Source of the DNA: Rickettsiales bacterium
Lineage (GTDB): Bacteria; Pseudomonadota; Alphaproteobacteria; Rs-D84; CACZYB01
Length of the DNA stretch: 55,832 bases
Direction: 5' to 3'
Assembly: GCA_031263095.1 (NCBI GenBank)
Contig: JAISGI010000019.1
Coordinates: 1-55,832, forward strand
The notes under the pieces are model-generated. The model made no database searches, had not been told where the DNA came from, and saw nothing but the letters and a program-made list of their open reading frames with translations. Shown here in pieces: positions 15,572 to 52,536 of this stretch. The position numbers and the translations under genes were made by a program. Numbering within the stretch: position 1 is the stretch's first letter; every line of letters begins with the position of its first letter.

Positions 15572-16954
15572 CTACACCTTGAGCTCGTAGAGCGAGGCGA
15601 AGCAGCCAGCACCGCCGGACTTGCCCGCAGCCTCTTGCCCCGGTGTGTTGTTCACTATTGCGGCATCGCCGTTTTTAAGCTCGTACTCGTCGGACTTTAT
15701 GCCGGTGCCTACGTCTATGCGGCCAGTATCGCTCTTGTCCAGAGTGTACTTGGTCTCGCTGGAAACCGCGAACACCTGGCTGTTCCAGTCGGAATCCGAG
15801 CACCACCCCTCCATCTTGTAGATTCCGGCGGGCACTTTCTTGGATACCTCCTTGGCCTCCGATGTGTCGAGAAGCTTCCACTTGGGTTCCTCGCCGACGC
15901 ACGCCTCGGCCTCTCCATAGGACAGGAACTTGTTCATGGAAAGGCAGGCGTCGCGGATAGAACCTCTGTGCTCGCCTTCGGCTTTGGCCAGCAGACGGTC
16001 CTTCTCCGCTTCGGCCTTCTCGAAGAACGCCTCGTCAAGCCCTTCGCGCTTCAGCTTGGCAGCGTCGCGCTCCGCCTGAAGCCCGGCGATGTGGGCAAGC
16101 CTGTCCGCCTCGGCCTGGTTTTCCGCCTCCTGCTCGAGAGCGTCCCTGTCGTTCTTGGCCTGGGCGATGTCGGACTTCAGCTTGTCGATCTGGACAAGCG
16201 CGTCCGCAGTGTCGGCGGCCTTGTCGGTCTTGGCTTTGGTGATGAGGATTCTGGCTTTCTCCATGAATACCGCGGTGTCGATGTCAAGCTGATCCGCGGC
16301 GTCGCGCGCTTTCTGCTCTTCCTTGACGCTCGACAGCTGGAACTTGGCTATCGAGGCGTTCGTGGCGGAAACGTCGGTCGCCGGGTCGGTGGCAAGCAGG
16401 GCCGCGGCCTCGGTATAGGCCTGGGATGCTTCGCCGCTGAACCCGTCGGCGGCATCGGCCGCTTCCTCTATCTTGTCGGCGGTCGCATCGGCAGTGTCGT
16501 ATGCGGCCTGCAAAATCTCCTTGTCCTTCTCGGTAAGGAATTGCTGGGAAAGCATGGGGCCAAGCCCGTCGACGCTCTTGCGCGCGTTGTCGGCATAGGC
16601 CCTTGTACGCTCGACCGAGGCTTCGATTGCCTCAAGCTCGGTCAAGGTGCTTGTCGTAGCGGCGGCGGCTTCGACACCCGCCGCTCCTGCACGACCCCCG
16701 TCGGCGGAACGTGCGGCGCCACGGCCACCTGCCCGGGCGGTTCCCGCTGCCCTCGCTCCGCGCCCGGTCGAGGCTGCGCGGGCCGAACCGCCCCTGCCCC
16801 TGGTCGTTGCGGCGGCGCGGGCCGAACCGCCCCTGCCCTTCGCAGAGCTTGCTGCGCGCGCGGGCTGTTTCTTTGTGCTCTTTTGCGGAGCCGCGTCGAT
16901 GGCCGAAGCCGCGACAAGCGCACCCGCGAAAAGTATTGCTGATAGTTTATTCAT
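15572..16954 (-). CDS. Secreted Ala/Arg-rich coiled-coil protein A
   Basis: A 460-aa exported protein. Signal peptide MNKLSAILFAGALVAASAIDA. Next is a basic low-complexity linker (about residues 23-95) of ARAA, RGRGG and GSARAA repeats, then a long charged alpha-helical region (about 100-330, heptad-like, rich in A, E, D, K and Q). A C-terminal domain follows, with four Cys and KVPAGIYKMEGWCSDSDWNS. The linker motif KKQPARAASSAKG is shared with the gene just upstream, so the two are paralogous in their N-terminal parts. AAAGGAG ribosome-binding site; 13 nt after that gene, so one operon. Probably envelope or surface located; function unknown. Confidence 0.83.
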   Translation of the reverse strand: MNKLSAILFAGALVAASAIDAAPQKSTKKQPARAASSAKGRGGSARAAATTRGRGGSARAASTGRGARAAGTARAGGRGAARSADGGRAGAAGVEAAAATTSTLTELEAIEASVERTRAYADNARKSVDGLGPMLSQQFLTEKDKEILQAAYDTADATADKIEEAADAADGFSGEASQAYTEAAALLATDPATDVSATNASIAKFQLSSVKEEQKARDAADQLDIDTAVFMEKARILITKAKTDKAADTADALVQIDKLKSDIAQAKNDRDALEQEAENQAEADRLAHIAGLQAERDAAKLKREGLDEAFFEKAEAEKDRLLAKAEGEHRGSIRDACLSMNKFLSYGEAEACVGEEPKWKLLDTSEAKEVSKKVPAGIYKMEGWCSDSDWNSQVFAVSSETKYTLDKSDTGRIDVGTGIKSDEYELKNGDAAIVNNTPGQEAAGKSGGAGCFASLYELKV

Positions 16955-16967
16955 TTCATTCTCTCCT

Positions 16968-18830
16968 TTACATGCGTTTCAGGGTTACCCAGCCGGGCAT
17001 TCCGCCGTTGCCGCTGCCCGAGCCGCCTTTGGCGCCCAGGCCGGAACCATACAGAACTTGGGCCACGGGGCCGGTCGCCTCGCCGGACTTCATCTCTTTA
17101 AGCGAGCCATCCGAGGGAACGCTTGAAACAGCCTCGACTATGCCCTGTGTGATGCCTTCGGTCGCCAAACCGGCGATAGCTCCTCCGGCTGCTCCAATTC
17201 CAGCAGTTATGGCAACGTTGGCGGCAACAATTGCACCGGTACCAGAAATAACACCCCAACCGCCGGCGCTTGCAAGACCTAATACCCCAATACCGGCAGG
17301 AGCGAATAGAACGGTTGCGGCGACGCCCGCGACTGCAACCAAAGGAGTGATTATGTCGGTCCAGCTGAATCCATTTCCGCCGCCACCTCCGCCGCCATAG
17401 GCGCCGAATCCGCCGAAGCCCTCGATCTCGGTTCCGTCGGCAAGCGTAAGCCCGAACGCCGAATATCCGCCGCCCGCGCCGCTTCCGCCTTTGCCGAAGC
17501 ATCCGGCGTTGCTGCCTCCGCCGCCCGCTGCGCCAAGCGTGCGGGTGTATTTATATTTGAGCGGGTTCTTCAGGTCTTTCTTGCCGTCCTCGCCGATTCT
17601 ATAGGTCGGCAGGCTGAACCACACGCGGGAAATGTCCGCGCGTCCGCCCGAGGCGCCGTCGCGCTTGGTCCATGCGCATTTATAGCGCCCGCCTCCGCCT
17701 CCTCCTCCGCCTGATACTTCAAGATAATAGAGTCCGCCAACAATCTCGCCCGTGCTGCCAAGCTCGATTGGCCCGGTCGGCATCGAGCTTTCGACTTTCG
17801 CGATAAGCGCTTCGATTTCCTTGTTGCGCTTGTCGGCAAGCTCGTCCGCCGCGGCGTCCTCCTTGCGATAGTCGAAGTCCTTGACCTGGTTCTCGCGCCC
17901 GATTTCTATGGTTTCCATCTGGGTTTTAAGGTCGCGGTACTTCGCCGACTGTTTCAAGGGGTCTTTCTCCTCGGAATCTTTGGCGTATGTCGGAATGGCT
18001 ACAAGCTGCCTGTCGAGCTTCGCAAGCTGGGTGCTGTAGTCGTCCAGAACCGCGGCAAGCGACTTCGCCCTCGCGCTCGGCGTCGCGGCCATATAGGCAT
18101 CGTATGCCGTGCGGAAGTCGGCGTACCCGTCCGCCTCTCCAGTGGGCGTAAGCTTTGCGGGCGGAGTGTATTTGACCCCGGTTTCATCCTCGAACAGCTC
18201 GTACATCCCGGCTATGCCCTCGATTTTAAGCGTTTCCGCGTCAAGCTCTTTCTGAACCTTGTCGACTTCCGCCTGATTCTTGCCGTCCTTGGCTGCCTGC
18301 ATCTGGGAGCGCAGTTCGCCTAGCCTTCCCCCTGTCCTCTCGCCGGTAAGCTCGTCTTCTTCTCCTGCAAGGTTGGTAAGATGGGTAGAGAGTTTGTCCC
18401 TCTCGGCCGCGGCCTTGTCTGCGTCTTTGGTAAGCGATTCGGCCTCAACGTACATCTCGATGTCCGCACGCGCCTTGGCAAGTGCAGCCTGAAGCTTGGC
18501 GGCTTTGTCTTCCGCCGTGGATGTCGACACCGCCGCGGTCGCTACACCCGGAGCTCCGGCCAAGGGTATGGCCTCCTCGGTTTGAGCAGCACCCCTGCCC
18601 GCCCCGCGCGAGGCGCCCCTTGTAGCGCTGCCGCCGCGCGTTCCTGCCGCCCGGGCCGAGCCAGCGCCCTTGCCCTTGACCGCAGCGCGCGCAGATTTGG
18701 CGCCACCCTTTGCCGAGCTTGCCGCCCGCGCCGGTTGTTTTTTGTTGTTGTTCTTTTTGGGCGGAGGCGCCGAAACGACCGAAGTCGCCGCGACGATAAG
18801 CCCTAAAAGCAATGCAAGTTGTTTTTTCAT
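16968..18830 (-). CDS. Secreted Ala/Arg- and Gly-rich coiled-coil protein B
   Basis: A 620-aa exported protein. Signal peptide MKKQLALLLGLIVAATSVVSA. A basic linker with KKQPARAASSAKG and GSARAAG repeats follows (22-85), then a long helical region (about 100-345). A Gly-rich domain (about 355-480) has runs of seven to eight Gly around RYKCAWTKRDG, NAGCFGKGGSGAGGGYSAFG and GGFGAYGGGGGGG. A hydrophobic stretch near 485-560 (ITPLVAVAGVAATVLFAPAG, ITAGIGAAGGAIAGLA) may insert in a membrane. Upstream AGGAG ribosome-binding site; co-transcribed with its partner downstream. Likely an adhesin or envelope structural protein; not identified. Confidence 0.83.
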   Translation of the reverse strand: MKKQLALLLGLIVAATSVVSAPPPKKNNNKKQPARAASSAKGGAKSARAAVKGKGAGSARAAGTRGGSATRGASRGAGRGAAQTEEAIPLAGAPGVATAAVSTSTAEDKAAKLQAALAKARADIEMYVEAESLTKDADKAAAERDKLSTHLTNLAGEEDELTGERTGGRLGELRSQMQAAKDGKNQAEVDKVQKELDAETLKIEGIAGMYELFEDETGVKYTPPAKLTPTGEADGYADFRTAYDAYMAATPSARAKSLAAVLDDYSTQLAKLDRQLVAIPTYAKDSEEKDPLKQSAKYRDLKTQMETIEIGRENQVKDFDYRKEDAAADELADKRNKEIEALIAKVESSMPTGPIELGSTGEIVGGLYYLEVSGGGGGGGGRYKCAWTKRDGASGGRADISRVWFSLPTYRIGEDGKKDLKNPLKYKYTRTLGAAGGGGSNAGCFGKGGSGAGGGYSAFGLTLADGTEIEGFGGFGAYGGGGGGGNGFSWTDIITPLVAVAGVAATVLFAPAGIGVLGLASAGGWGVISGTGAIVAANVAITAGIGAAGGAIAGLATEGITQGIVEAVSSVPSDGSLKEMKSGEATGPVAQVLYGSGLGAKGGSGSGNGGMPGWVTLKRM

Positions 18831-27062: not shown

Positions 27063-28385
27063 TTAGTAGCGTTTCACTCCGAACGCGCCGCGTATATCCG
27101 TGCCCGTCCCCGCGTGCGAATACTGGAACCGGCCAAGCGCCTCGTACGCCGCACCGCTGCCGTTCACGACCGAGTTCGCCTTGAGCCCGTAATAAGTCGC
27201 GTCGAACGTCCCCTTCCCGCCGGCAAAGTTGTCGAAACCGGAAACAGCGCCCGAAACCTCGACCGCGTTATTCGTCTTGAACACCATGCCAAGCCCGCCG
27301 AACGCAAGCGCAAGCGTGTCGTCCTTGCGCGACTTCGGGTTGAGAGTCAAGACCGCGCTGCCCGACAGGTCGGCCGCGCGCACGAAACTGGTGCTCTCGT
27401 CGGCAAAGCCAAGCGCGGAAACTTTCTGCGTAATCCCGCCGACCGCCTTGCCGGTAAAGGTGTACGAGGCCTGGTTCATGCCGACGAAATTGTTCGTTAT
27501 CTGGCGCGCCGCGTCGCCCTTGACATAGCCGTCATAGGCAATCGCGCCGCCGTCCTTGAACGCGGACAAACCGTTCAGGGCATAAAGCCGCTTGCCCCAG
27601 TCGATTAGCGCGAACTTTAGCTGGTCGTCGCTTACCGCCGCCTTTGTGTCCAATTCGGCAAGGAACTGCGCCCTCGAGGCGTCGGGGTCTGTCATTTTTG
27701 CGAACAGAGGCCACACATCGGTAATAATCTTCGCCGCTCCGTTGGAGCCAAGGAACGCGGCCAGTCCGCCACTCGCACCGCTAGGGTTGCTCATATAGGC
27801 GTTCACGGCGGCAACCACCGCGGCATAGTCCCCTCCCGCAGTCATCGTCCCGACTGCGGTTTTGAGCGCCGCAAGGTTGGCATTTATCCAAGCAATCTTG
27901 TCGGCGGGTATCGCGGTGGCAAGCTCGAGCATCTTGTAATCCTTGGCCCCGTCGTTATAGTTCTTGCTCCACACGTTGAGCGAGGTATAGCCGAATTCGC
28001 TCTCCGACTGCAGCCCGGCATTCCCAATAACGCGATTGAGCACGATTTTATCCACAAGCAGATTGCTCGAGATAAGCTTGCCCTGCGCGTCTATGACCTC
28101 GCTTGCGAAAGGCTCGGAAAACTTGGTTTTGATTGAGGAAAGCCCGGTCGTGACCTGCGCTTTGTCTTGAAGCCCGGAAAACGCGGACAAAGGCGAGGAA
28201 ACCGCCTCGCCGACGAACTTATGTGTATCGCGCGTCTCGTCTATCGGAATCCGCTTCGACGCACGCTGACCCTCGGACGGCGAGGAATGCCCGCCGCTTG
28301 GCGCAATGCCCGTCGAGCCGCCGTCGCTCGCACACCCGGCCAAAAATGCCGCAATCGCCAAACCACTGATTGAATATCTGTTCAT
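27063..28385 (-). CDS. Surface lipoprotein with TbpB-like C-terminal barrel
   Basis: A 440-aa lipoprotein. The signal peptide ends in the lipobox LAGC (Cys18). A Ser/Gly/Pro-rich linker and a helical middle region (ANLAALKTAVGTM, VNAYMSNPSG) follow. The last 150 residues are strand-rich and end with KGTFDATYYGLKANSVVNGS, ALGRFQYSH and IRGAFGVKRY. This matches the small beta-barrel style of transferrin-binding-protein-B-like lipoproteins, where the ending IxGAFGxK is characteristic; ligand unknown. AAAGGAGGG ribosome-binding site. The promoter contains a G9 tract, which fits on/off variation of a surface antigen. Confidence 0.8.
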   Translation of the reverse strand: MNRYSISGLAIAAFLAGCASDGGSTGIAPSGGHSSPSEGQRASKRIPIDETRDTHKFVGEAVSSPLSAFSGLQDKAQVTTGLSSIKTKFSEPFASEVIDAQGKLISSNLLVDKIVLNRVIGNAGLQSESEFGYTSLNVWSKNYNDGAKDYKMLELATAIPADKIAWINANLAALKTAVGTMTAGGDYAAVVAAVNAYMSNPSGASGGLAAFLGSNGAAKIITDVWPLFAKMTDPDASRAQFLAELDTKAAVSDDQLKFALIDWGKRLYALNGLSAFKDGGAIAYDGYVKGDAARQITNNFVGMNQASYTFTGKAVGGITQKVSALGFADESTSFVRAADLSGSAVLTLNPKSRKDDTLALAFGGLGMVFKTNNAVEVSGAVSGFDNFAGGKGTFDATYYGLKANSVVNGSGAAYEALGRFQYSHAGTGTDIRGAFGVKRY

Positions 28386-30993: not shown

Positions 30994-31911
30994 CAACCAA
31001 AGTTTTGGCAAAGAAAGGGGATAATCGCCCTCGTCCTCTTCCCTCTCTCGCTGCTATACAGATTCGCCGCAGCGGTAAAACGCATGCGCGCAAGCCCGTA
31101 CAGGGCGAAAATCCCGGTCGTGTGCATAGGGAACATAAGCATAGGCGGCACAGGCAAAACCCCGATTGTCGAGGCTGTCGCAAGGTTCTATATCAAGAAA
31201 CGCGCCCGCGTCGCCATCCTCTCCCGCGGCTACGGCGGAAGCGCTAAAGGCCCGCTAATCGTCAGGCCCGGCAAACACACGGCCGCAATGGTCGGGGACG
31301 AGCCGCTTATGCTCGCCACCGCCCTGCCCCGCGCGAAAGTTGTGATATGCGCCGACCGCGCCGCCTCCGCAAAGTTGATAGAGAACCGCGCGGATGTGAT
31401 TGTAATGGACGACGGACTCCAAAATTTTACCCTCGCCAAGACTTGCCAAGTCTGCGTTGTGCGCGGCCTCGGCAACGGTCTCACTCTGCCCGCCGGCCCT
31501 CTGCGCGAGCCCGCTTCTGCGCTGAAAAAAATGGACGCCATAATCGCGCCCGAGGGAATGAAATTCAAGGGCGCACACGTCTTCCATTCACGGACAAGGT
31601 TTGTCAAAAGGCCGAAACACGCCAGCAGCGCGATGGCCGGCATAGGCGACCCGCAAAGGTTTTTCAGCCATGTCGAGAGCGTCGCACGCACGAAGTTGAC
31701 GCACGCTTTTGCTTTCCCCGACCACCATTTTTATACCGACACAGAGCTTGAGGCCGTCGCAAAATTCGCGCCCGTCTATACCACGTCCAAGGACTTTGTG
31801 AAAATCCCCGACCGGCTGAAAAAATATTTTATAGAGGTGAAAATCAAAGCTGAAGTTGACGACGAATTTTTTCGAATTCTGCCCAAGTTAAATCGAGCGC
31901 GGCCGCGTTAG
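30982..31911 (+). CDS. lpxK: Tetraacyldisaccharide 4'-kinase
   Basis: A 309-aa inner-membrane-associated kinase that phosphorylates the lipid A precursor disaccharide. N-terminal membrane helix IIALVLFPLSLLYRFAAAV. Walker A is in NISIGGTGKTPIVEA (about 51-65). The LpxK motif SRGYGG is near residue 80 and VIVMDDGLQN near 135. DHHFYTDTEL is the family's C-terminal motif. Leaderless start; the last 68 nt overlap the end of alr on the other strand. Confidence 0.95.
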   Translation: MLFQQPKFWQRKGIIALVLFPLSLLYRFAAAVKRMRASPYRAKIPVVCIGNISIGGTGKTPIVEAVARFYIKKRARVAILSRGYGGSAKGPLIVRPGKHTAAMVGDEPLMLATALPRAKVVICADRAASAKLIENRADVIVMDDGLQNFTLAKTCQVCVVRGLGNGLTLPAGPLREPASALKKMDAIIAPEGMKFKGAHVFHSRTRFVKRPKHASSAMAGIGDPQRFFSHVESVARTKLTHAFAFPDHHFYTDTELEAVAKFAPVYTTSKDFVKIPDRLKKYFIEVKIKAEVDDEFFRILPKLNRARPR

Positions 31912-33031
31912 GCCTCAATAAATTTACAAAATTCTCCGCCGCAGTATAGCCAAGGGAATTGCGGAAATCCGCGCACGGAGCAAGCTTGCCCATAACTTGC
32001 GCATATTTCGCACGCTCCAAAATGTCGCCAGGCACGTCCGACACATCGACGATAATATTGTTCATGGAAACAATACCGACAAGCGGACATTTACGCCCGC
32101 CGATGTCCGCATAAGCACGCGTATATCCTCCGCCCGCATGCAGCTTCGCGCGGATGAAATTAAAGAGCCCGTTCGTCTTCGAAAGGCCGCGCGAATACCC
32201 GTCCGCATACCCAAGACACAACACCGCGACTTTCATTTTGCGCCGCGCAACATACTCGTCCGAATAGCCGATAGTCTCGCCCTTTACTACTTCGCGAACC
32301 TGCAAAATCCGCGCATATACATCGACGATTTGCTCCATCCCCGAAGCAAATCCATATAGTGCATAGCCAGGCCGCACAATGTCGAAATGATACTCCGCGC
32401 CAAGACGCAAAAGCCCGCTCGACGCCGCAAGCGACATCTCCGCCTTCGGCAGCGGCGCAACCATCGACGTGAAATTTTCAAGCTGCGACTTGCAATATTT
32501 GCCATACGAAAACGGCCCATGCAGGTGCGAAATATAAAGCACAATCTCAAGATTTCCCGCAAGCTTTTCAATGTCGCTCGCAAGCTCCCGAGCGTCTTGC
32601 ACCGACAGCCCCGTGCGGTTCATCCCTGTGTCGAAATGCACGCCCACCCGTGGCTTGCGCGACCGCCCCGCCGCCGCGGAATTATACGAGGCAAGCTGCG
32701 AAAGAGACACGCAAACCGGCACGATACCGCTCTCGATATAACGCTCCTCCTGCCCTTCCATAACGCCGGAAAAAGTGAACAGATTCGCACCCTTCACGCT
32801 CGCAAGAGAGGGCAAAACCACTTCCGCCTCGGCAAGCGTTTGCACAAAAAAGTCGCGCACTCCCTCGCGCACAAGAACGCCAGCGGCACGCTCCGCGCCG
32901 AACCCGTACGCATTGGATTTTATCGTAGCGCCAAGCCGGGCATGCGTAGCGCCCGCCGCACGCCTGACGTTCCTCGCGAACGCCTCCTCGTCATAAACCC
33001 GGATTATGTCGAAATTATCCTTGTAAATCAT
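31844..33031 (-). CDS. alr: Alanine racemase
   Basis: A 395-aa PLP enzyme that makes D-alanine for peptidoglycan. The PLP lysine is in TIKSNAYGFG (Lys38) and the second catalytic base, Tyr, in ETIGYSDEYVA. HFDTGMNRTG and LYISHLHGPF form the TIM-barrel signatures, and MNNIIVDVSDVPG the C-terminal domain. ATG 33031 is 6 nt after its -10 box without a Shine-Dalgarno, so leaderless. Divergent from the tandem murE gene; overlaps lpxK by 68 nt. Confidence 0.94.
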   Translation of the reverse strand: MIYKDNFDIIRVYDEEAFARNVRRAAGATHARLGATIKSNAYGFGAERAAGVLVREGVRDFFVQTLAEAEVVLPSLASVKGANLFTFSGVMEGQEERYIESGIVPVCVSLSQLASYNSAAAGRSRKPRVGVHFDTGMNRTGLSVQDARELASDIEKLAGNLEIVLYISHLHGPFSYGKYCKSQLENFTSMVAPLPKAEMSLAASSGLLRLGAEYHFDIVRPGYALYGFASGMEQIVDVYARILQVREVVKGETIGYSDEYVARRKMKVAVLCLGYADGYSRGLSKTNGLFNFIRAKLHAGGGYTRAYADIGGRKCPLVGIVSMNNIIVDVSDVPGDILERAKYAQVMGKLAPCADFRNSLGYTAAENFVNLLRPNAAALDLTWAEFEKIRRQLQL

Positions 33032-33049
33032 AAGGCGATTATATACAAT
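33021..33049 (+). promoter_or_regulatory. murE-murE promoter
   Basis: TTGTAA (33021-33026, inside alr), 17-bp spacer, TACAAT (33044-33049), next to the opposing alr -10. Followed by AAGGAA before ATG 33076. Confidence 0.7.
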
Positions 33050-33066
33050 AAGCACAGGTTTTACAA
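33038..33066 (-). promoter_or_regulatory. alr promoter (leaderless)
   Basis: TTGTAA (33066-33061), 17-bp spacer, TATAAT (33043-33038), 6 nt to ATG 33031. The two opposing -10 boxes are directly adjacent. Confidence 0.85.
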
Positions 33067-33075
33067 GGAATTATT

Positions 33076-36006
33076 ATGAAGTTTTCAGAGCTCCTCTCTC
33101 CGCTAAACATAACTCCCGCCGCCGACGCCGAAATAACCGGCATAGCGAATAACTCTGGCGAGGTCTTGCCCGGCTTCCTGTTCATCGCGATAAAGGGATA
33201 CAGGTTCGACGGAGCAGATTTTATACCCGAAGCCGTGAAAAATGGAGCCGCCGCCATCCTCGCTGACCGCTCGGCAAGCGCGCTCGCAAACAAGTTCCCA
33301 AACACCGCGTTCGCCTTCGCCGACATGGACATGAGGCTCGCTGAAAGCAGGCTTGCGGCCACATTCTACCCCGACGCGCCAGCATTCGTCTGCGCCGTGA
33401 CCGGCACGAACGGCAAGTCCTCGGTCGTCAATTTCGCACGGCAATTGTGGGAGTTCGAGGGTACAAACGCCGCCTCGATTGGCACCGTCGGTATAAAGTC
33501 CAAGGTCCTCTCCGGCGGCAAAAGCCTGACCACGCCCGACGCGCTCGATTTGCATAGGAATCTCGAGGACTTGGCCCGCCTCGGCGTCTCCCGCGTCGCA
33601 CTCGAAACCTCAAGCCACGGCATAGAGCAACATAGGGCCGACAGCCTGAAAATCATGGCCGCAGGCTTCACGAATCTTTCGAACGACCACCTCGATTTTT
33701 ACAAGGACGTGGACGAGTATTTTAAGGCCAAACTAAGGCTGTTCAAAGAACTGCTCGACCCCTCCGGCACCGCGGTCGTGAACATCGAAGATCCCCGCGC
33801 AGACCAAGTAATCGAAGTTTGCCGCGCACGTAATATCAAAGTAATCGCATTCGGCGAACATGATAATGCCGACATAAAGCTGGTCTCTTATGAAATAAAG
33901 GGATATAAACAGCAAGTAAAACTCTCCGTCTTCGGAAAAATATTCGAAACGGAATTGAATCTGGTGACCAAATTCCAAATCTCGAACCTCATGTGCGCAA
34001 TAGGGCTGTTCGTCGCAGGCGGCGGCAGCATCGAAAAGGCCGCGCCACGCCTGCCCGAACTCGAAAACGAAAAGGGCCGCATAGAGTACGTCGCCACCGC
34101 GCCAAGCGGGGCAAGGATTTACGTCGACTTCGGCCACAACGGCGACGGCATAAAAAAATTGCTGACCGAGTTCCGCCCGTACGTCAAACACACCCTGACT
34201 TGCATAGCGGGCAGTAGCGGCGAACGCCCCGAAATCCGCCGCATAGAAATCGGCCAAGTCCTAAACGCCCTCGCCGACAAGGTGATAATAGTAGACGATA
34301 ACCCGCGCGCGGAAGACCCCGCGAAAATCCGCGCGACATTGCTGAAATACTGCCCCAAGGCGCGCGAAATCCCCGACCGCGAACGCGCGATAGAGGAGGC
34401 GATAGACACCTCCCGCGGCTGGGATTCAATAATAATCTGCGGCACCATGTACGAGAAAGACAAGGAGTTTATAAGGCAAAAGCTCGCCCCGCGCACCGTC
34501 CCGCTCGACCGGCTCCTGAACGAATCCGGCCTCACAAGCGCACCGTCCGCCGACGCGCGCACAATCGCCAACGTCTCCATGAATTCGCAGGGCATAATGC
34601 CGCCAGCGGTGTTCGTGGGCATACAGGGCTTCACGAAAAACGGCTCCGACTTCGCGGCCGAGGCCATCGGAAACGGCGCCGCCGCTCTCGTCGTCCCAAC
34701 CGATTACGAATTCGACGCACCAACGGCCAAACTGATAGAAGCAAAAAAAATCCCCGTAGCCCGCGCGAAGAGCACAAGGAAAGCCTTTGCCGACCTTGCC
34801 TATAACTTCTACGGCCGCAGCCAACCCGACACGGTTTGCGCTGTCACCGGCACAAGCGGCAAGTCCTCGACCGTGGATTTTTTGCGCCAGATGTGGGCGC
34901 TCCTGAAGCTGCCCGCCCTCTCCGCCGGCACCATAGGAGTGATTGTGGATAATGTCTACTCCGAGGAGAAAATCGTCAAATACGCCGAAGACCACACCTC
35001 GCCCGTCGGGGACGAGATTTATAAGAACCTCGCCTACTTCAAGGGCAAAGGTGTCGAACACGGCGCGCTCGAAATGTCAAGCCACGGCATCGATCAGCTC
35101 CGCGCGGAAAATATAAGGATACGCGCCGCAGGATTTACCAACCTCGGCACCGACCACGTTGACTTCTACGGCTCGCCCGAAAAATATTTGCAAAGCAAAT
35201 CCCGCCTGTTCACCGAATGCGTCGATGACGGCGGCGCGGCAGTCCTCAACGCCGACATTCCAGAATACGAATTCCTGCGCCAAGTGTGCGAAAAACGCGG
35301 CCTGCGAGTAATCGCCTACGGCCGTGCCCCCACCGCCGACCTGAAAATCATATCGCAGGAAATCAGCCTCGACGGCCAGCGCGCGGAGGTCGAATTATTC
35401 GGCAAACGCCATACGCTCGAGCTTAAAATTTTGGGCCGCTTCCAACTGATGAACCTGCTCTGCGCCATCGGCCTCCTCGCCGCCACAACACCGGATTGGG
35501 AGCAGGTTTTGCCAAGACTTGGCCTGCTCAAGAACGCCCTCGGCCGCTTGGAATACATGGGCCGCACAAAAAGCGGTGCAAGCATTTATGTCGACTTCTC
35601 GTACAAGGGCGACGCACTCGAAAGCACGCTCAAAAACTTGCGCTCGATGTCAACCGGCCGCCTGGTGCTTGTATTTTCCACCTGCGGCGACGTGTACGAA
35701 ACAAGACGACGCAAGGAGCTTGGCGAGGCCGCGCGCGACTTCGCCGATGTGGCGATACTTACCGACGACAGCCCGCGCACCGAAGACCCGCAGAAAATCA
35801 GGGACGAGATTCTCGCCCACTGCCCCGGCGCACTCGAAGTGAAAACCGGCCGCCGCGACGCTATCGCCAAGGCAATCAAACTCGCCCAGGCAAACGATAT
35901 AATCCTCGTCGCCGGCAAAGGCCACGAGGATTATATTACGATAGGCGAGGAGAATATCCCATATACCGACCAGGATACGATTCGCGAACTACTTCTTCGG
36001 CCATAA
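33076..36006 (+). CDS. Tandem MurE-MurE fusion (UDP-MurNAc-tripeptide ligase family)
   Basis: A 976-aa protein made of two complete Mur-ligase modules in one frame (about 1-475 and 480-976), twice the normal MurE length. Module 1: P-loop TGTNGKSS (109-116), substrate motif LTTPDALDL, LETSSHGIEQHR, probable carbamylated Lys in YFKAKLRLF, KGRIEYV, and DDNPRAEDP, which in MurE recognises meso-diaminopimelate. Its terminal GKGHE motif is replaced by CGTMYE. Module 2: P-loop TGTSGKSS (591-598), LEMSSHGIDQLR, SKSRLF, LGRLEYM, DDSPRTEDP (Asn changed to Ser) and an intact AGKGHE (946-951). The family role is adding the third peptide-stem residue in the cytoplasm. The modules have diverged in complementary ways, so one may be regulatory or they may share substrates. 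Confidence 0.93.
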   Translation: MKFSELLSPLNITPAADAEITGIANNSGEVLPGFLFIAIKGYRFDGADFIPEAVKNGAAAILADRSASALANKFPNTAFAFADMDMRLAESRLAATFYPDAPAFVCAVTGTNGKSSVVNFARQLWEFEGTNAASIGTVGIKSKVLSGGKSLTTPDALDLHRNLEDLARLGVSRVALETSSHGIEQHRADSLKIMAAGFTNLSNDHLDFYKDVDEYFKAKLRLFKELLDPSGTAVVNIEDPRADQVIEVCRARNIKVIAFGEHDNADIKLVSYEIKGYKQQVKLSVFGKIFETELNLVTKFQISNLMCAIGLFVAGGGSIEKAAPRLPELENEKGRIEYVATAPSGARIYVDFGHNGDGIKKLLTEFRPYVKHTLTCIAGSSGERPEIRRIEIGQVLNALADKVIIVDDNPRAEDPAKIRATLLKYCPKAREIPDRERAIEEAIDTSRGWDSIIICGTMYEKDKEFIRQKLAPRTVPLDRLLNESGLTSAPSADARTIANVSMNSQGIMPPAVFVGIQGFTKNGSDFAAEAIGNGAAALVVPTDYEFDAPTAKLIEAKKIPVARAKSTRKAFADLAYNFYGRSQPDTVCAVTGTSGKSSTVDFLRQMWALLKLPALSAGTIGVIVDNVYSEEKIVKYAEDHTSPVGDEIYKNLAYFKGKGVEHGALEMSSHGIDQLRAENIRIRAAGFTNLGTDHVDFYGSPEKYLQSKSRLFTECVDDGGAAVLNADIPEYEFLRQVCEKRGLRVIAYGRAPTADLKIISQEISLDGQRAEVELFGKRHTLELKILGRFQLMNLLCAIGLLAATTPDWEQVLPRLGLLKNALGRLEYMGRTKSGASIYVDFSYKGDALESTLKNLRSMSTGRLVLVFSTCGDVYETRRRKELGEAARDFADVAILTDDSPRTEDPQKIRDEILAHCPGALEVKTGRRDAIAKAIKLAQANDIILVAGKGHEDYITIGEENIPYTDQDTIRELLLRP

Positions 36007-48928: not shown

Positions 48929-50485
48929 ATGAGTATAAAAGTCAAGGCTGCTCTGGCATTTATGGCATTCGCAGCGATACCGCCTGGCGTGAGCGCCCAG
49001 GGAACAAGCGACTATTACGACTCTTTCTACAGCGATTATTACAAGTCATATCCCGTCGCGAACAAGCCTCAGGCCCTATCTCCAAGCTTGCCGCGGAATA
49101 TGGAGTTTGTCTCGCCCGGCTCCGTCCCGGCCCAGGATGTGGGCAGAGCCGCGCCGCTTGCGACCCCTGTCGCAGCAATTCAGGAACCCGCGCCCATGGG
49201 CGCGCCGACACAGGCGGGCCAGCCGGTGATAACGAAAAAGCAGGTAACCTACAAACCGCCCTCCGAGGTGGATTCGCACTACAAAAGCGTAACCCACGAC
49301 ACCAAGACTTGGGATGTCGAACTTCTATACCAGCAGGGCTGGGGCCAGTTCAGCTTCCTTATGGACGTCGGCTCGATTCTCAACTGGGACGAGTCCAGCA
49401 ACAACCAGGCGATAGTAAGGCTCTCTAGGGACTTCCTGTTCAAGAACCGCCAGATTGTGTTCAGCGCCTCGTTCGGCCAGGGAAAGCTTACCACCGACCG
49501 CACCTCGGACGACGATATTTTCAACGAGCTCCACCTGATTTCCCTTGGAAAAGGAAACGCTAACCTCCAGGATTGGTCGGTAAGCTTGGGTCTTCGCAAT
49601 TGGACGCGCTGGGCCGGCTGGGACATCACGCCGATGATCGGCCTCAAAAAGAAAATTCAGAAGTTCGAGATGTACGACCACGTAGCCCCCGCGCCGTTCT
49701 ACTTCGAGGCGCTCTGCTACGAGGATGACTACGGCACCTGCGCCGACATCGACCTTACCAACATCGACGGCATAGACTACTCGGATCTGGTATATATATA
49801 TGACGATGAAGGCGAATACTGGTACGTCGACATGTCGGCCGAAGATCAGGCGTATTATAACGAGGGCGGCGCCCTCCTGACCATTCCCGGCTGGGGCTAC
49901 GACGCCGAAGCAGACGCGGACGTCGAAAACATGTTCTATGGCATGCTTATACCCGAGGACGACTTCTGCTATTACACGGTGCTTGGCGACTACGCTTGCC
50001 TAGCGAACGAGGATAACTCGATTCTCTACGCTTTCGGCGGCGTGTCCAGCCTGAACGAGCAGTGGGGCATAACGCACATTTATTATGTCACGTGGTACGG
50101 CCCTTTCCTCGGCATGAATTTCGAACGGGCTATATCGCCGCGCGAGCTGGTCAATGTGTACCTCGAGCTTTACAGGCCGAAATATACCGTCTGGGGCAAC
50201 TGGCCCAACCGCGACGACTGGATGCACGACCCGTCCTTCTACGACAAGGGCTCCGACGCTTGGGGCTACCTGGTCGAGCTGAAATACAAATATATGTTCA
50301 AGCCCGGCGCGGAATTCATAATCGGCGCCAACTGGGAGTATATAAAGGTTGAAAACGCCGACACGACGCTGTTCTTCGCCGACGGCCGCGGCATGCTCGC
50401 GGGCGAGGAGTTCATACCAAACTCGATATTGCACGCAAGATGGTACAACGTCGCAGTCTTCGCGGGCCTAGGGTTCAAGCTATGA
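48929..50485 (+). CDS. Predicted outer-membrane beta-barrel protein
   Basis: A 518-aa exported protein not assigned to a family. Signal peptide MSIKVKAALAFMAFAAIPPGVSA. A Pro/Ala-rich, Tyr-rich stretch (about 24-110) is followed by many alternating strands with aromatic ends (WDVELLYQQGWGQFSFLMDV, DFLFKNRQIVFSASFGQGKL, VNVYLELYRPKYTVWGNWPN) and the C-terminal LHARWYNVAVFAGLGFKL, ending in an aromatic-x-hydrophobic pattern as in outer-membrane barrels. A long acidic insertion (about 250-340, DDEGEYWYVDMSAEDQ) would be an exposed loop. Overlaps the next gene's start (ATGATGA). Confidence 0.8.
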   Translation: MSIKVKAALAFMAFAAIPPGVSAQGTSDYYDSFYSDYYKSYPVANKPQALSPSLPRNMEFVSPGSVPAQDVGRAAPLATPVAAIQEPAPMGAPTQAGQPVITKKQVTYKPPSEVDSHYKSVTHDTKTWDVELLYQQGWGQFSFLMDVGSILNWDESSNNQAIVRLSRDFLFKNRQIVFSASFGQGKLTTDRTSDDDIFNELHLISLGKGNANLQDWSVSLGLRNWTRWAGWDITPMIGLKKKIQKFEMYDHVAPAPFYFEALCYEDDYGTCADIDLTNIDGIDYSDLVYIYDDEGEYWYVDMSAEDQAYYNEGGALLTIPGWGYDAEADADVENMFYGMLIPEDDFCYYTVLGDYACLANEDNSILYAFGGVSSLNEQWGITHIYYVTWYGPFLGMNFERAISPRELVNVYLELYRPKYTVWGNWPNRDDWMHDPSFYDKGSDAWGYLVELKYKYMFKPGAEFIIGANWEYIKVENADTTLFFADGRGMLAGEEFIPNSILHARWYNVAVFAGLGFKL

Positions 50486-52536
50486 TGAGGCGGACACTGA
50501 CATCGCTGTCTCTGCTCCTGCTGGCCTCGACGCCGGCCGTTTCCGCGCCGAAGAAGTCGAACAAGGCCGAAATGCTCGAGGCCGCGCGCGCCGCGAAAAA
50601 AGGTGGAAAGCCCAAGACTGCGGCCCGCCCGCCGGCGAACTCGAACAAGCCGACCACGGCCGCCGCTGCGACCACTACGAAACGCGACTTCAAGGGCAAT
50701 ACCCAGGTCGAGGTCGATACGATAGCCAGCGACTTGATGAGCATGTGCCTCTCCTCACGCTGCGACGGCGACATAGCGTACAGCAACTGCTTCACGAAAG
50801 AAAAGATGGAAACGGTAATAGCCTCCGATTCAACATGCAAGGCACTGATGTCCGAGGCGACCTCGCCCCAGACGGCACAACTGATAAAAACCGAAACCTG
50901 GCGCCAGATGCAGCGCAGGTTCGAAAGCGCTTGCTCGAACGCCAATGGGACAATCCAGAACGGCGAGTGCATGATAAAGATTTGCTACAGGGCGACTGTC
51001 CCTCCTGGCGCGGGCGAAGGCGGGCCGATACAGAATTGCAAGCCGATGAGGATAGGCACGAACGTTATGTGCAGCTATACTACGTTCGGGTTCAGCGAAG
51101 GCGATATGGAATTCAAAGCCAAGGCCACCGCCGAGCAGGAAGCCGCCAAAATCGCCGCCACCATGACCCTCATCACCGGCGGTATCGAGGCCGGCATGAA
51201 CGTGGTCACTATGATTAAAACCTCCGCCGAGCTAAAGAATGCGAGTAAAGGCGAAGGAGATATTATATACTTCTTCAGTAATAAAGGTATTAGCGAAGGA
51301 AAAACATGCCTTACTAAAACCTACGATAAGGAAATTGTGAAAAACGGATGTGAGGGCTACGACAACGACGAGCCGGATAATGATGAAGGTGGAAAATTCT
51401 GCTCGAAAAAAACATCCTCTTACAATACTTATGAAAAGATTTGTAAAGGGGAAACGACTACAGGCGCGCTAGGGGGAGGGGACAGCAACGATGATATGCC
51501 CTCATGCAATGATACAACATATAGCGAAAGTGAAGAATTCGATACGGCTTCTCCATATCAAAATGGGAAATCATGCTGGGTATTCATAAAGAACTCGAGC
51601 GAGCTTGCAAAAACAAACAAGGCTAACGAGCTTGTAAGGAAGTTCGGAGCCATGAACAACCCCGAGGTGGAAGAAGCACGCGAACGCGTCAATATGATGA
51701 ATGCGATAGGCGCGCAAACAACGGCCGGTATGTACGCGCAGGGACTTGGAAGCACGTTTAGCAGTAGTGGCGGTTCTGAGGACTGTGCAACGGCAAGAAG
51801 CATTTATGCGACCAACAACACCTTGCTCAACGAAGTAAATACTTATAACTCCCAGAACCCCTCTGAAAAGTTGAATCCAGGCACCTGTAAGCAAACGGGC
51901 ACAAAGGTTGGGAACGGTTTCGAGTACACTTGCCTGACACAAGCCACTACCGCTAACGCCTGCAAATTCGAAAAGAATAGGTATGTCAAGATAAACACTG
52001 ACGCTGGTACATATGCTTCGACCTATTCATATAAGTATATATGTACGGGTGATTGCAATGATTGTACAGTACAAAATACGCCAATAGATCATATGAAATA
52101 TAATAGTCTTTCTGCTGCCAATAAAAAATGCTATGAGGTACAAGGGACTGCTACAGCAGGCGGAGCGACAAATATTATGAATATGTCCTACGACATAAAG
52201 CAGATGAATAATGAAATAAAGACGCTTACCAAAGAGGATAGAAAAACTATATGGGAAGCCGAGCGTGCAGAAGCCCAATACAACGAGAACCAGAAAAAAA
52301 TAAAAGAAAAGAACGAAGAGATAGCCTCCCTCAAAGCCCAAAAGGAAGCCTCTATGTCTGCAGCTATACAGGGTGGAATGAATACTGTTCTAAACGGAGG
52401 TCTGGCTCTTTCCACTGCCAATAAGGCCATAGAGGCCAACCGCGGCCTGCGTACCGGCATGTGCTGGGTGGGCGAACCCTCCAAAGGACTCCAGTTTGCC
52501 ACAGAGGGTCAGGCCAAGGCTGTCGGCTGGAGATAG
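50482..52536 (+). CDS. Secreted Ala/Lys-linker protein with AT-rich mosaic middle
   Basis: An exported protein of about 684 aa. Signal peptide (RRTLTSLSLLLLASTPAVSA), a basic Ala/Lys/Thr linker (22-68), then a Cys-containing body with about 24 Cys. A hydrophobic helix pair lies near 220-245 (IAATMTLITGGIEAGMNVVT). A long charged coiled coil occupies about 575-640 (IKQMNNEIKTLTKEDRKTIW), and the end carries GTGMCWVGEP-like sequence. From about 51240 to 52400 the base use turns clearly AT-rich compared with both ends, suggesting replacement of the middle by recombination. The start overlaps the barrel gene, so both are one operon and may form a surface complex. The 3' end overlaps the ABC permease gene by 28 nt. 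Confidence 0.82.
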   Translation: MMRRTLTSLSLLLLASTPAVSAPKKSNKAEMLEAARAAKKGGKPKTAARPPANSNKPTTAAAATTTKRDFKGNTQVEVDTIASDLMSMCLSSRCDGDIAYSNCFTKEKMETVIASDSTCKALMSEATSPQTAQLIKTETWRQMQRRFESACSNANGTIQNGECMIKICYRATVPPGAGEGGPIQNCKPMRIGTNVMCSYTTFGFSEGDMEFKAKATAEQEAAKIAATMTLITGGIEAGMNVVTMIKTSAELKNASKGEGDIIYFFSNKGISEGKTCLTKTYDKEIVKNGCEGYDNDEPDNDEGGKFCSKKTSSYNTYEKICKGETTTGALGGGDSNDDMPSCNDTTYSESEEFDTASPYQNGKSCWVFIKNSSELAKTNKANELVRKFGAMNNPEVEEARERVNMMNAIGAQTTAGMYAQGLGSTFSSSGGSEDCATARSIYATNNTLLNEVNTYNSQNPSEKLNPGTCKQTGTKVGNGFEYTCLTQATTANACKFEKNRYVKINTDAGTYASTYSYKYICTGDCNDCTVQNTPIDHMKYNSLSAANKKCYEVQGTATAGGATNIMNMSYDIKQMNNEIKTLTKEDRKTIWEAERAEAQYNENQKKIKEKNEEIASLKAQKEASMSAAIQGGMNTVLNGGLALSTANKAIEANRGLRTGMCWVGEPSKGLQFATEGQAKAVGWR

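Follow-up and report, generated by a model that had tools for sequence, protein, structure and literature searches.

Organization of the tandem murE locus

The window, a 55,832-nucleotide stretch of DNA from an alphaproteobacterium assigned to the Rickettsiales, contains a single open frame coding for two MurE-like modules fused head to tail, with a divergently transcribed alr gene alongside (Table 1). The initial annotation had described a 976-aa frame with two full Mur-ligase modules, and its coordinates and strand are exact: the Pfam domains Mur_ligase, Mur_ligase_M, and Mur_ligase_C are each matched twice, and the modules, scored one by one, reach 333 bits (module 1) and 346 bits (module 2) with TIGR01085 (MurE), both above its curated cut-off of 257.3 bits. 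With NF001124, the equivalog for meso-diaminopimelate (mDAP) MurE, they score 448 and 422, each below the cut-off of 476, and 865 together. The two modules are 39% identical to each other, and as MurF, MurD, or MurC both score far below their MurE scores; module 2, for example, reaches 85 bits as MurF (cut-off, 288.6). The whole protein also scores under the cut-off of PRK11929, the MurE-MurF fusion. Assignment of module 2 to MurF, MurC, MurD, or Mpl is ruled out by these profile scores, and MurC, MurD, and MurF are located elsewhere in the genome.

Table 1. Coordinates of the tandem MurE gene, its parts, and the adjoining gene
Feature	Coordinates	Strand	Description
alr (alanine racemase)	31844..33055	-	Divergent neighbor of the tandem gene in 10/10 genomes
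Tandem MurE-MurE gene	33076..36006	+	976 aa, ATG start, TAA stop, one open frame
Module 1 (aa 1-476)	33076..34503	+	MurE module; all aligned E. coli mDAP contacts; C-terminal beta-hairpin after the GKGHE position absent
Module 1 P-loop TGTNGKSS (aa 109-116)	33400..33423	+	
Module 1 Lys219	33730..33732	+	Aligns with carbamylated Lys224 of E. coli MurE
Module 1 Arg384	34225..34227	+	Aligns with E. coli Arg389; invariant 10/10
Module 1 DNPR (aa 408-411)	34297..34308	+	
Module 1 GTMYE (aa 456-460)	34441..34455	+	In place of GKGHE, its G and E retained
Module 2 (aa 477-976)	34504..36003	+	MurE module, amino acid pocket altered
Module 2 P-loop TGTSGKSS (aa 591-598)	34846..34869	+	
Module 2 Lys708	35197..35199	+	Aligns with carbamylated Lys224 of E. 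coli MurE
Module 2 Val873-Tyr874	35692..35697	+	At the E. coli Arg389 position; Arg absent in 10/10
Module 2 DSPR (aa 898-901)	35767..35778	+	Asn414 to Ser
Module 2 GKGHE (aa 947-951)	35914..35928	+	

Full-length structure prediction, which the initial annotation had proposed, was done with AlphaFold2 from a ten-row alignment and gives two MurE-like folds (pLDDT, 84.7; pTM, 0.71), the last helix of module 1 and the first helix of module 2 being joined by a predicted linker of about seven residues. The top Foldseek match of the predicted structure is the MurE-MurF complex 8f5d, followed by single MurE structures. Elsewhere in the window, the open reading frames at 50440-52536, 27063-28385, 16968-18830, and 15572-16954 (440 to 698 aa) have no Pfam match at an E value of 1e-5, and some may not be genes; the frame at 48929-50485 has a C-terminal match to Pom, the Protochlamydia outer membrane protein (PF17251; E value, 3e-10).

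The tandem is the only MurE of its genome and is conserved

The source genome (855 kb in 44 contigs, 88.6% complete) has five Mur_ligase_M sites, namely modules 1 and 2 and three others that BLAST against E. coli assigns to MurC, MurD, and MurF; MraY, MurG, and FtsW are also encoded. With all five sites assigned, the Mur_ligase_M search finds no separate murE in this genome, and the check for a single-domain murE that had been suggested for the locus identifies the tandem as the only MurE. Nine of ten other genomes of the family (G002 to G010) carry the same single-frame tandem, always adjoining a divergent alr, the exception being G001, which is 70% complete. Mur_ligase_M sites number exactly five in eight of these nine and four in G003. 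The tandem thus spans ten genomes and four genera of one gut alphaproteobacterial family (f1).

This distribution also bears on the integrity of the fusion. A merger of two adjacent genes through misassembly or a frameshift has no point in its favor and a negligible probability; it is refuted because ten genomes from several different depositing projects share the single-frame fusion at 60 to 64% identity, and the interruption between the modules that the initial annotation named as a possible refutation is found in none of them.

The family's order, with its small genomes and one dominant genus, matches GTDB order Rs-D84 (PMC12306168), to which the family probably belongs. The matching GenBank records are titled "Alphaproteobacteria bacterium" or simply "bacterium," and their isolate or contig names indicate termite, rumen, and water deer gut as the sampled material. 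Genomes from other families of the order carry one MurE or none. Genomes G013, G014, and G027, from the dominant genus (g8, probably Enterousia) and from family f4, have no Mur_ligase_M match at 93 to 100% completeness, and MurC to MurF seem to have been lost there, whereas the literature credits the order with MreB, RodA, and MrdA.

Beyond the family, no tandem was found in the genomes sampled from the class and the phylum, which have a single MurE. Among 115 genomes of the class, two MurE matches are present only in the source genome; the matches listed for 200 genomes of the phylum include no second tandem; and when 84,980 species genomes were scanned by pattern, the 80 loci kept include tandems from this family only. 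Long single frames with a MurE match in other genomes (about 800 to 1800 aa) contain one MurE each and probably represent fusions of MurE with MurF. No paper on a tandem or fused MurE-MurE was found in the literature, and the proposal that it is new relative to the known MurE-MurF fusions is supported. The tandem is a conserved new variant within the known MurE enzyme family.

Origin of the duplication

In a tree built on a reduced sequence set, modules 1 and 2 cluster in one clade with the single MurEs of sister family f2 (UFBoot, 100; FastTree, 0.993), and the duplication therefore took place in the order. This clade groups with family f6 (99), apart from other Alphaproteobacteria. Topology tests do not separate the possible placements of the f2 sequences, with approximately-unbiased (AU) P values of 0.73 with module 1, 0.18 with module 2, and 0.44 outside both, and the duplication may therefore predate or follow the split of f1 and f2. 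The f2 enzyme, the sole MurE found in f2 genomes, has DSPR together with a lysine at position 389 (E. coli numbering, as for all positions below); this suggests that an enzyme with a DSPR pocket is able to act as the only MurE. The most likely history is that murE was duplicated and fused in frame inside this order of small-genome gut Alphaproteobacteria, the fusion being the sole MurE.

Both modules retain the catalytic residues and are under purifying selection

Lys119, Glu182, His210, Lys224, Arg341, and Asp356 are kept in both modules of every member, and the substrate-site residues Thr157, Ser184, and Arg192 are likewise kept in both modules. An alignment of 30 single alphaproteobacterial MurEs with that of E. 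coli has 63 invariant columns. Both modules keep 39 of these; all copies of module 1 alone have lost 4, all copies of module 2 alone have lost 5, both modules have lost another 5, and the remaining 10 are mixed. Estimates of dN/dS from close pairs are 0.07 to 0.12 for module 1 and 0.06 to 0.07 for module 2; the closest pair (G005 and G006) gives 0.07 in each module, and for G009 and G010 the module 1 value is 0.12 and the module 2 value 0.06. Both modules are under strong purifying selection, and neither is decaying.

These observations weigh on one of the options raised in the initial annotation, a catalytic-plus-regulatory pair, in which catalysis falls to one module while its partner binds ligands and controls or stabilizes it. 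Such a division is possible, and it would be in keeping with the very short linker and with the loss by each module of residues otherwise invariant in Alphaproteobacteria, at non-overlapping positions. However, both modules keep the P-loop lysine, the Mg ligands, the carbamyl-lysine, Arg341, and Asp356 without exception, similar purifying selection acts on both, and module 2 shows nothing like a decayed active site. A complete catalytic set in each counts against a pure regulator, which would not need all of it, and a regulatory module is rather unlikely.

The amino acid pockets of the two modules differ

Arg389 and Gly464 of E. coli MurE (1e8c) are presumably mDAP contacts. In the same enzyme, Asn414 and Arg416 interact with the distal carboxylate of this ligand, and Asp413 and Glu468 with its distal amino group (PMC3829189; PMC3681970). 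Module 1 keeps all six of these residues in 10/10 members by alignment. T-[ML]-[YF] stands where GKGHE has K-G-H, so that the segment reads CGT[M/L][Y/F]E, and the C-terminal hairpin is absent; the G and E of this segment are the residues that align with Gly464 and Glu468. Without the hairpin after the GKGHE position, however, they may sit otherwise than in E. coli. Module 2 has GKGHE and keeps Asp413, Arg416, Gly464, and Glu468, but its contact set is incomplete: in every member whose sequence covers these positions, residue 414 is Ser and residue 389 is not Arg; His359 is also replaced by Tyr in every member. DNPA without Arg416, the trait of S. aureus-type L-Lys enzymes, is found in neither module, both of which keep Arg416. 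Every member whose sequence covers the region (10 for module 1, 9 to 10 for module 2) shares the module-specific changes, and because these fixed changes lie at columns invariant in the single MurEs and E. coli, they are not due to chance.

The motifs quoted in the initial annotation (TTPD, DNPR, and no GKGHE in module 1; GKGHE, DSPR, and TSP in module 2) are present as stated, although TSP is particular to the source species, the other nine tandem members having TTP, and the losses of Arg389 and His359 from module 2 had not been noticed. Complementary motif loss is real in every tandem member with sequence at these positions, but it is not a complementary loss of contacts: GKGHE is absent from module 1, yet the replacement retains the aligned G and E, and with its full aligned contact set module 1 cannot be said to lack substrate contacts.

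The same result weakens the suggestion that the fusion is one composite enzyme whose halves share a single active site, each supplying the contacts missing from the other. Complementary motif loss is what such an enzyme would be expected to display, but no aligned mDAP contact is missing from module 1, and N, central, and C domains are complete in each module, as is the ATP-binding and catalytic machinery. In Mur ligases, moreover, the C domain closes over the central domain of the same ligase, and we know of no Mur ligase with an active site shared between subunits. A shared site is thus very improbable.

Loss of the DAP pathway and scavenging

Searches of the ten tandem genomes recovered no dapA, dapF, or ddh gene and no lysA above the cut-off (weak matches below it occur in G003 and G010); these absences rest on metagenome-assembled genomes (MAGs) that are 77 to 97% complete, but they recur across all ten, and control searches gave the expected matches. 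The one tandem genome with dapB-like genes is G002, of the same genus as the source, which has two (L204:7198-8061 and L205:3090-3770). With the DAP genes missing, the third residue of the stem peptide must therefore be scavenged from outside.

Related genomes vary in this respect. In f2, dapA, dapB, dapF, ddh, and lysA were all not found. The f6 genomes G015 and G018 have dapF and single MurEs with a canonical pocket (Arg389 and Asn414), and G184 codes for dapA-like, dapB-like, and dapF genes and for a single MurE that also has Arg389 and Asn414. The dapF gene of G184 is directly downstream of murE (L202:2432-4801; G184:C81), and this MurE has Tyr in place of His359 in an otherwise canonical pocket. 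G055 and G197 have a single MurE and no full DAP pathway, yet keep the canonical pocket, and the pocket change therefore does not simply track pathway loss. As few lineages are involved, the association between the two is only suggestive.

Scavenging is also compatible with another arrangement, in which both modules add imported mDAP, the fusion raises dosage or affinity in a DAP auxotroph, and the pocket differences are tolerated drift that was fixed early. Module 2 does keep Asp413, Arg416, Gly464, and Glu468; f2 lives on a single MurE with DSPR and Lys389, so a pocket of this kind can be the sole MurE; and the change of His359 to Tyr recurs in G184, where murE lies beside dapF. Against this, the differences are fixed across four genera and lie at amino-acid-facing positions that are invariant elsewhere, which makes a common substrate unlikely.

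A proposed MurE with two amino acid preferences

The reading that we prefer, with a probability of roughly 0.45, is a two-site MurE in which module 1 serves mDAP and the pocket of module 2 has been re-tuned to a different diamino acid or DAP isomer, likewise scavenged. Two active ligases of differing preference would account jointly for the complete catalytic sets, the fixed differences between the pockets, and a lifestyle based on scavenging; we infer both the activity of the modules and the substrate of each. Module 1 would most likely add mDAP imported from outside. Module 2 would be a second active ligase with its pocket altered at two carboxylate-facing positions (loss of Arg389 and Asn414 to Ser), and its substrate is most likely some other diamino acid or an isomer of DAP, obtained by scavenging. 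Since it keeps Arg416, which binds the distal carboxylate in mDAP enzymes, module 2 may still use mDAP or a close analog, and at the sequence level this residue argues for a substrate with a distal carboxylate, such as a DAP isomer or lanthionine. An altered DNPR can also go with lysine, by analogy with the Thermotoga maritima MurE (PMC9434261). The initial annotation had included a protein adding an unusual residue among its options; this fits best if the protein is taken to be module 2 with its re-tuned pocket, and the family's loss of the DAP pathway lends support in that direction but is no proof.

More tentatively, the tandem could be one bifunctional MurE with two amino acid specificities, through which a bacterium that does not make DAP builds its wall from two scavenged third-position residues. 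MurE sets which diamino acid cross-links the wall, and most characterized bacteria have one MurE with one specificity. Because the only MurE of this family is a conserved double enzyme with two different pockets, and the DAP pathway has been lost, the family offers a natural test of how fixed wall chemistry must be; it also bears on how symbionts that build a wall subsist on scavenged precursors and on the residues that set MurE specificity.

Comparison with known systems

Both modules share the three-domain fold, the catalytic residues, and most substrate contacts with MurE (TIGR01085; E. coli 1e8c and M. tuberculosis 2wtz), but there are two modules per chain, and they depart from single MurEs in different places, module 1 lacking K-G-H and the hairpin and module 2 lacking Arg389, His359, and Asn414. 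The MurE-MurF fusion (PRK11929/NF008896; 8f5d, PMC6420597) likewise joins two Mur ligases head to tail, whereas the second half here is a MurE and the source genome has a separate MurF. Module 2 resembles the T. maritima MurE (4bub) in that the second residue of DNPR is changed (DDPR) and, by alignment, there is no Arg at 389, but 4bub is a single, unfused module; the T. maritima enzyme accepts L-Lys and D-Lys (PMC9434261). The L-Lys MurE of S. aureus (4c12) also illustrates that the DNPx pocket contributes to choice of the diamino acid, although it has DNPA and no Arg416, which module 2 keeps.

Two adjacent murE-like genes are present at five loci of Oscillospiraceae MAGs (L026, L048, L051, L059, and L062), for which record names suggest a rabbit gut origin; one gene of each pair is canonical (GDRP, DNPR, and GKGHE) and the other lacks DNPR and GKGHE. 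At L051 the gene without these motifs shares a single frame with an amino acid kinase domain (PF00696) that reads like acetylglutamate kinase, and L059 and L062 have frames equal in size to this fusion. These pairs and the moss proteins PpMurE1 and PpMurE2 (PMC9434261) are like the tandem in that MurE is present twice and one copy has a changed pocket or no demonstrated MurE activity, but theirs are separate genes in unrelated lineages.
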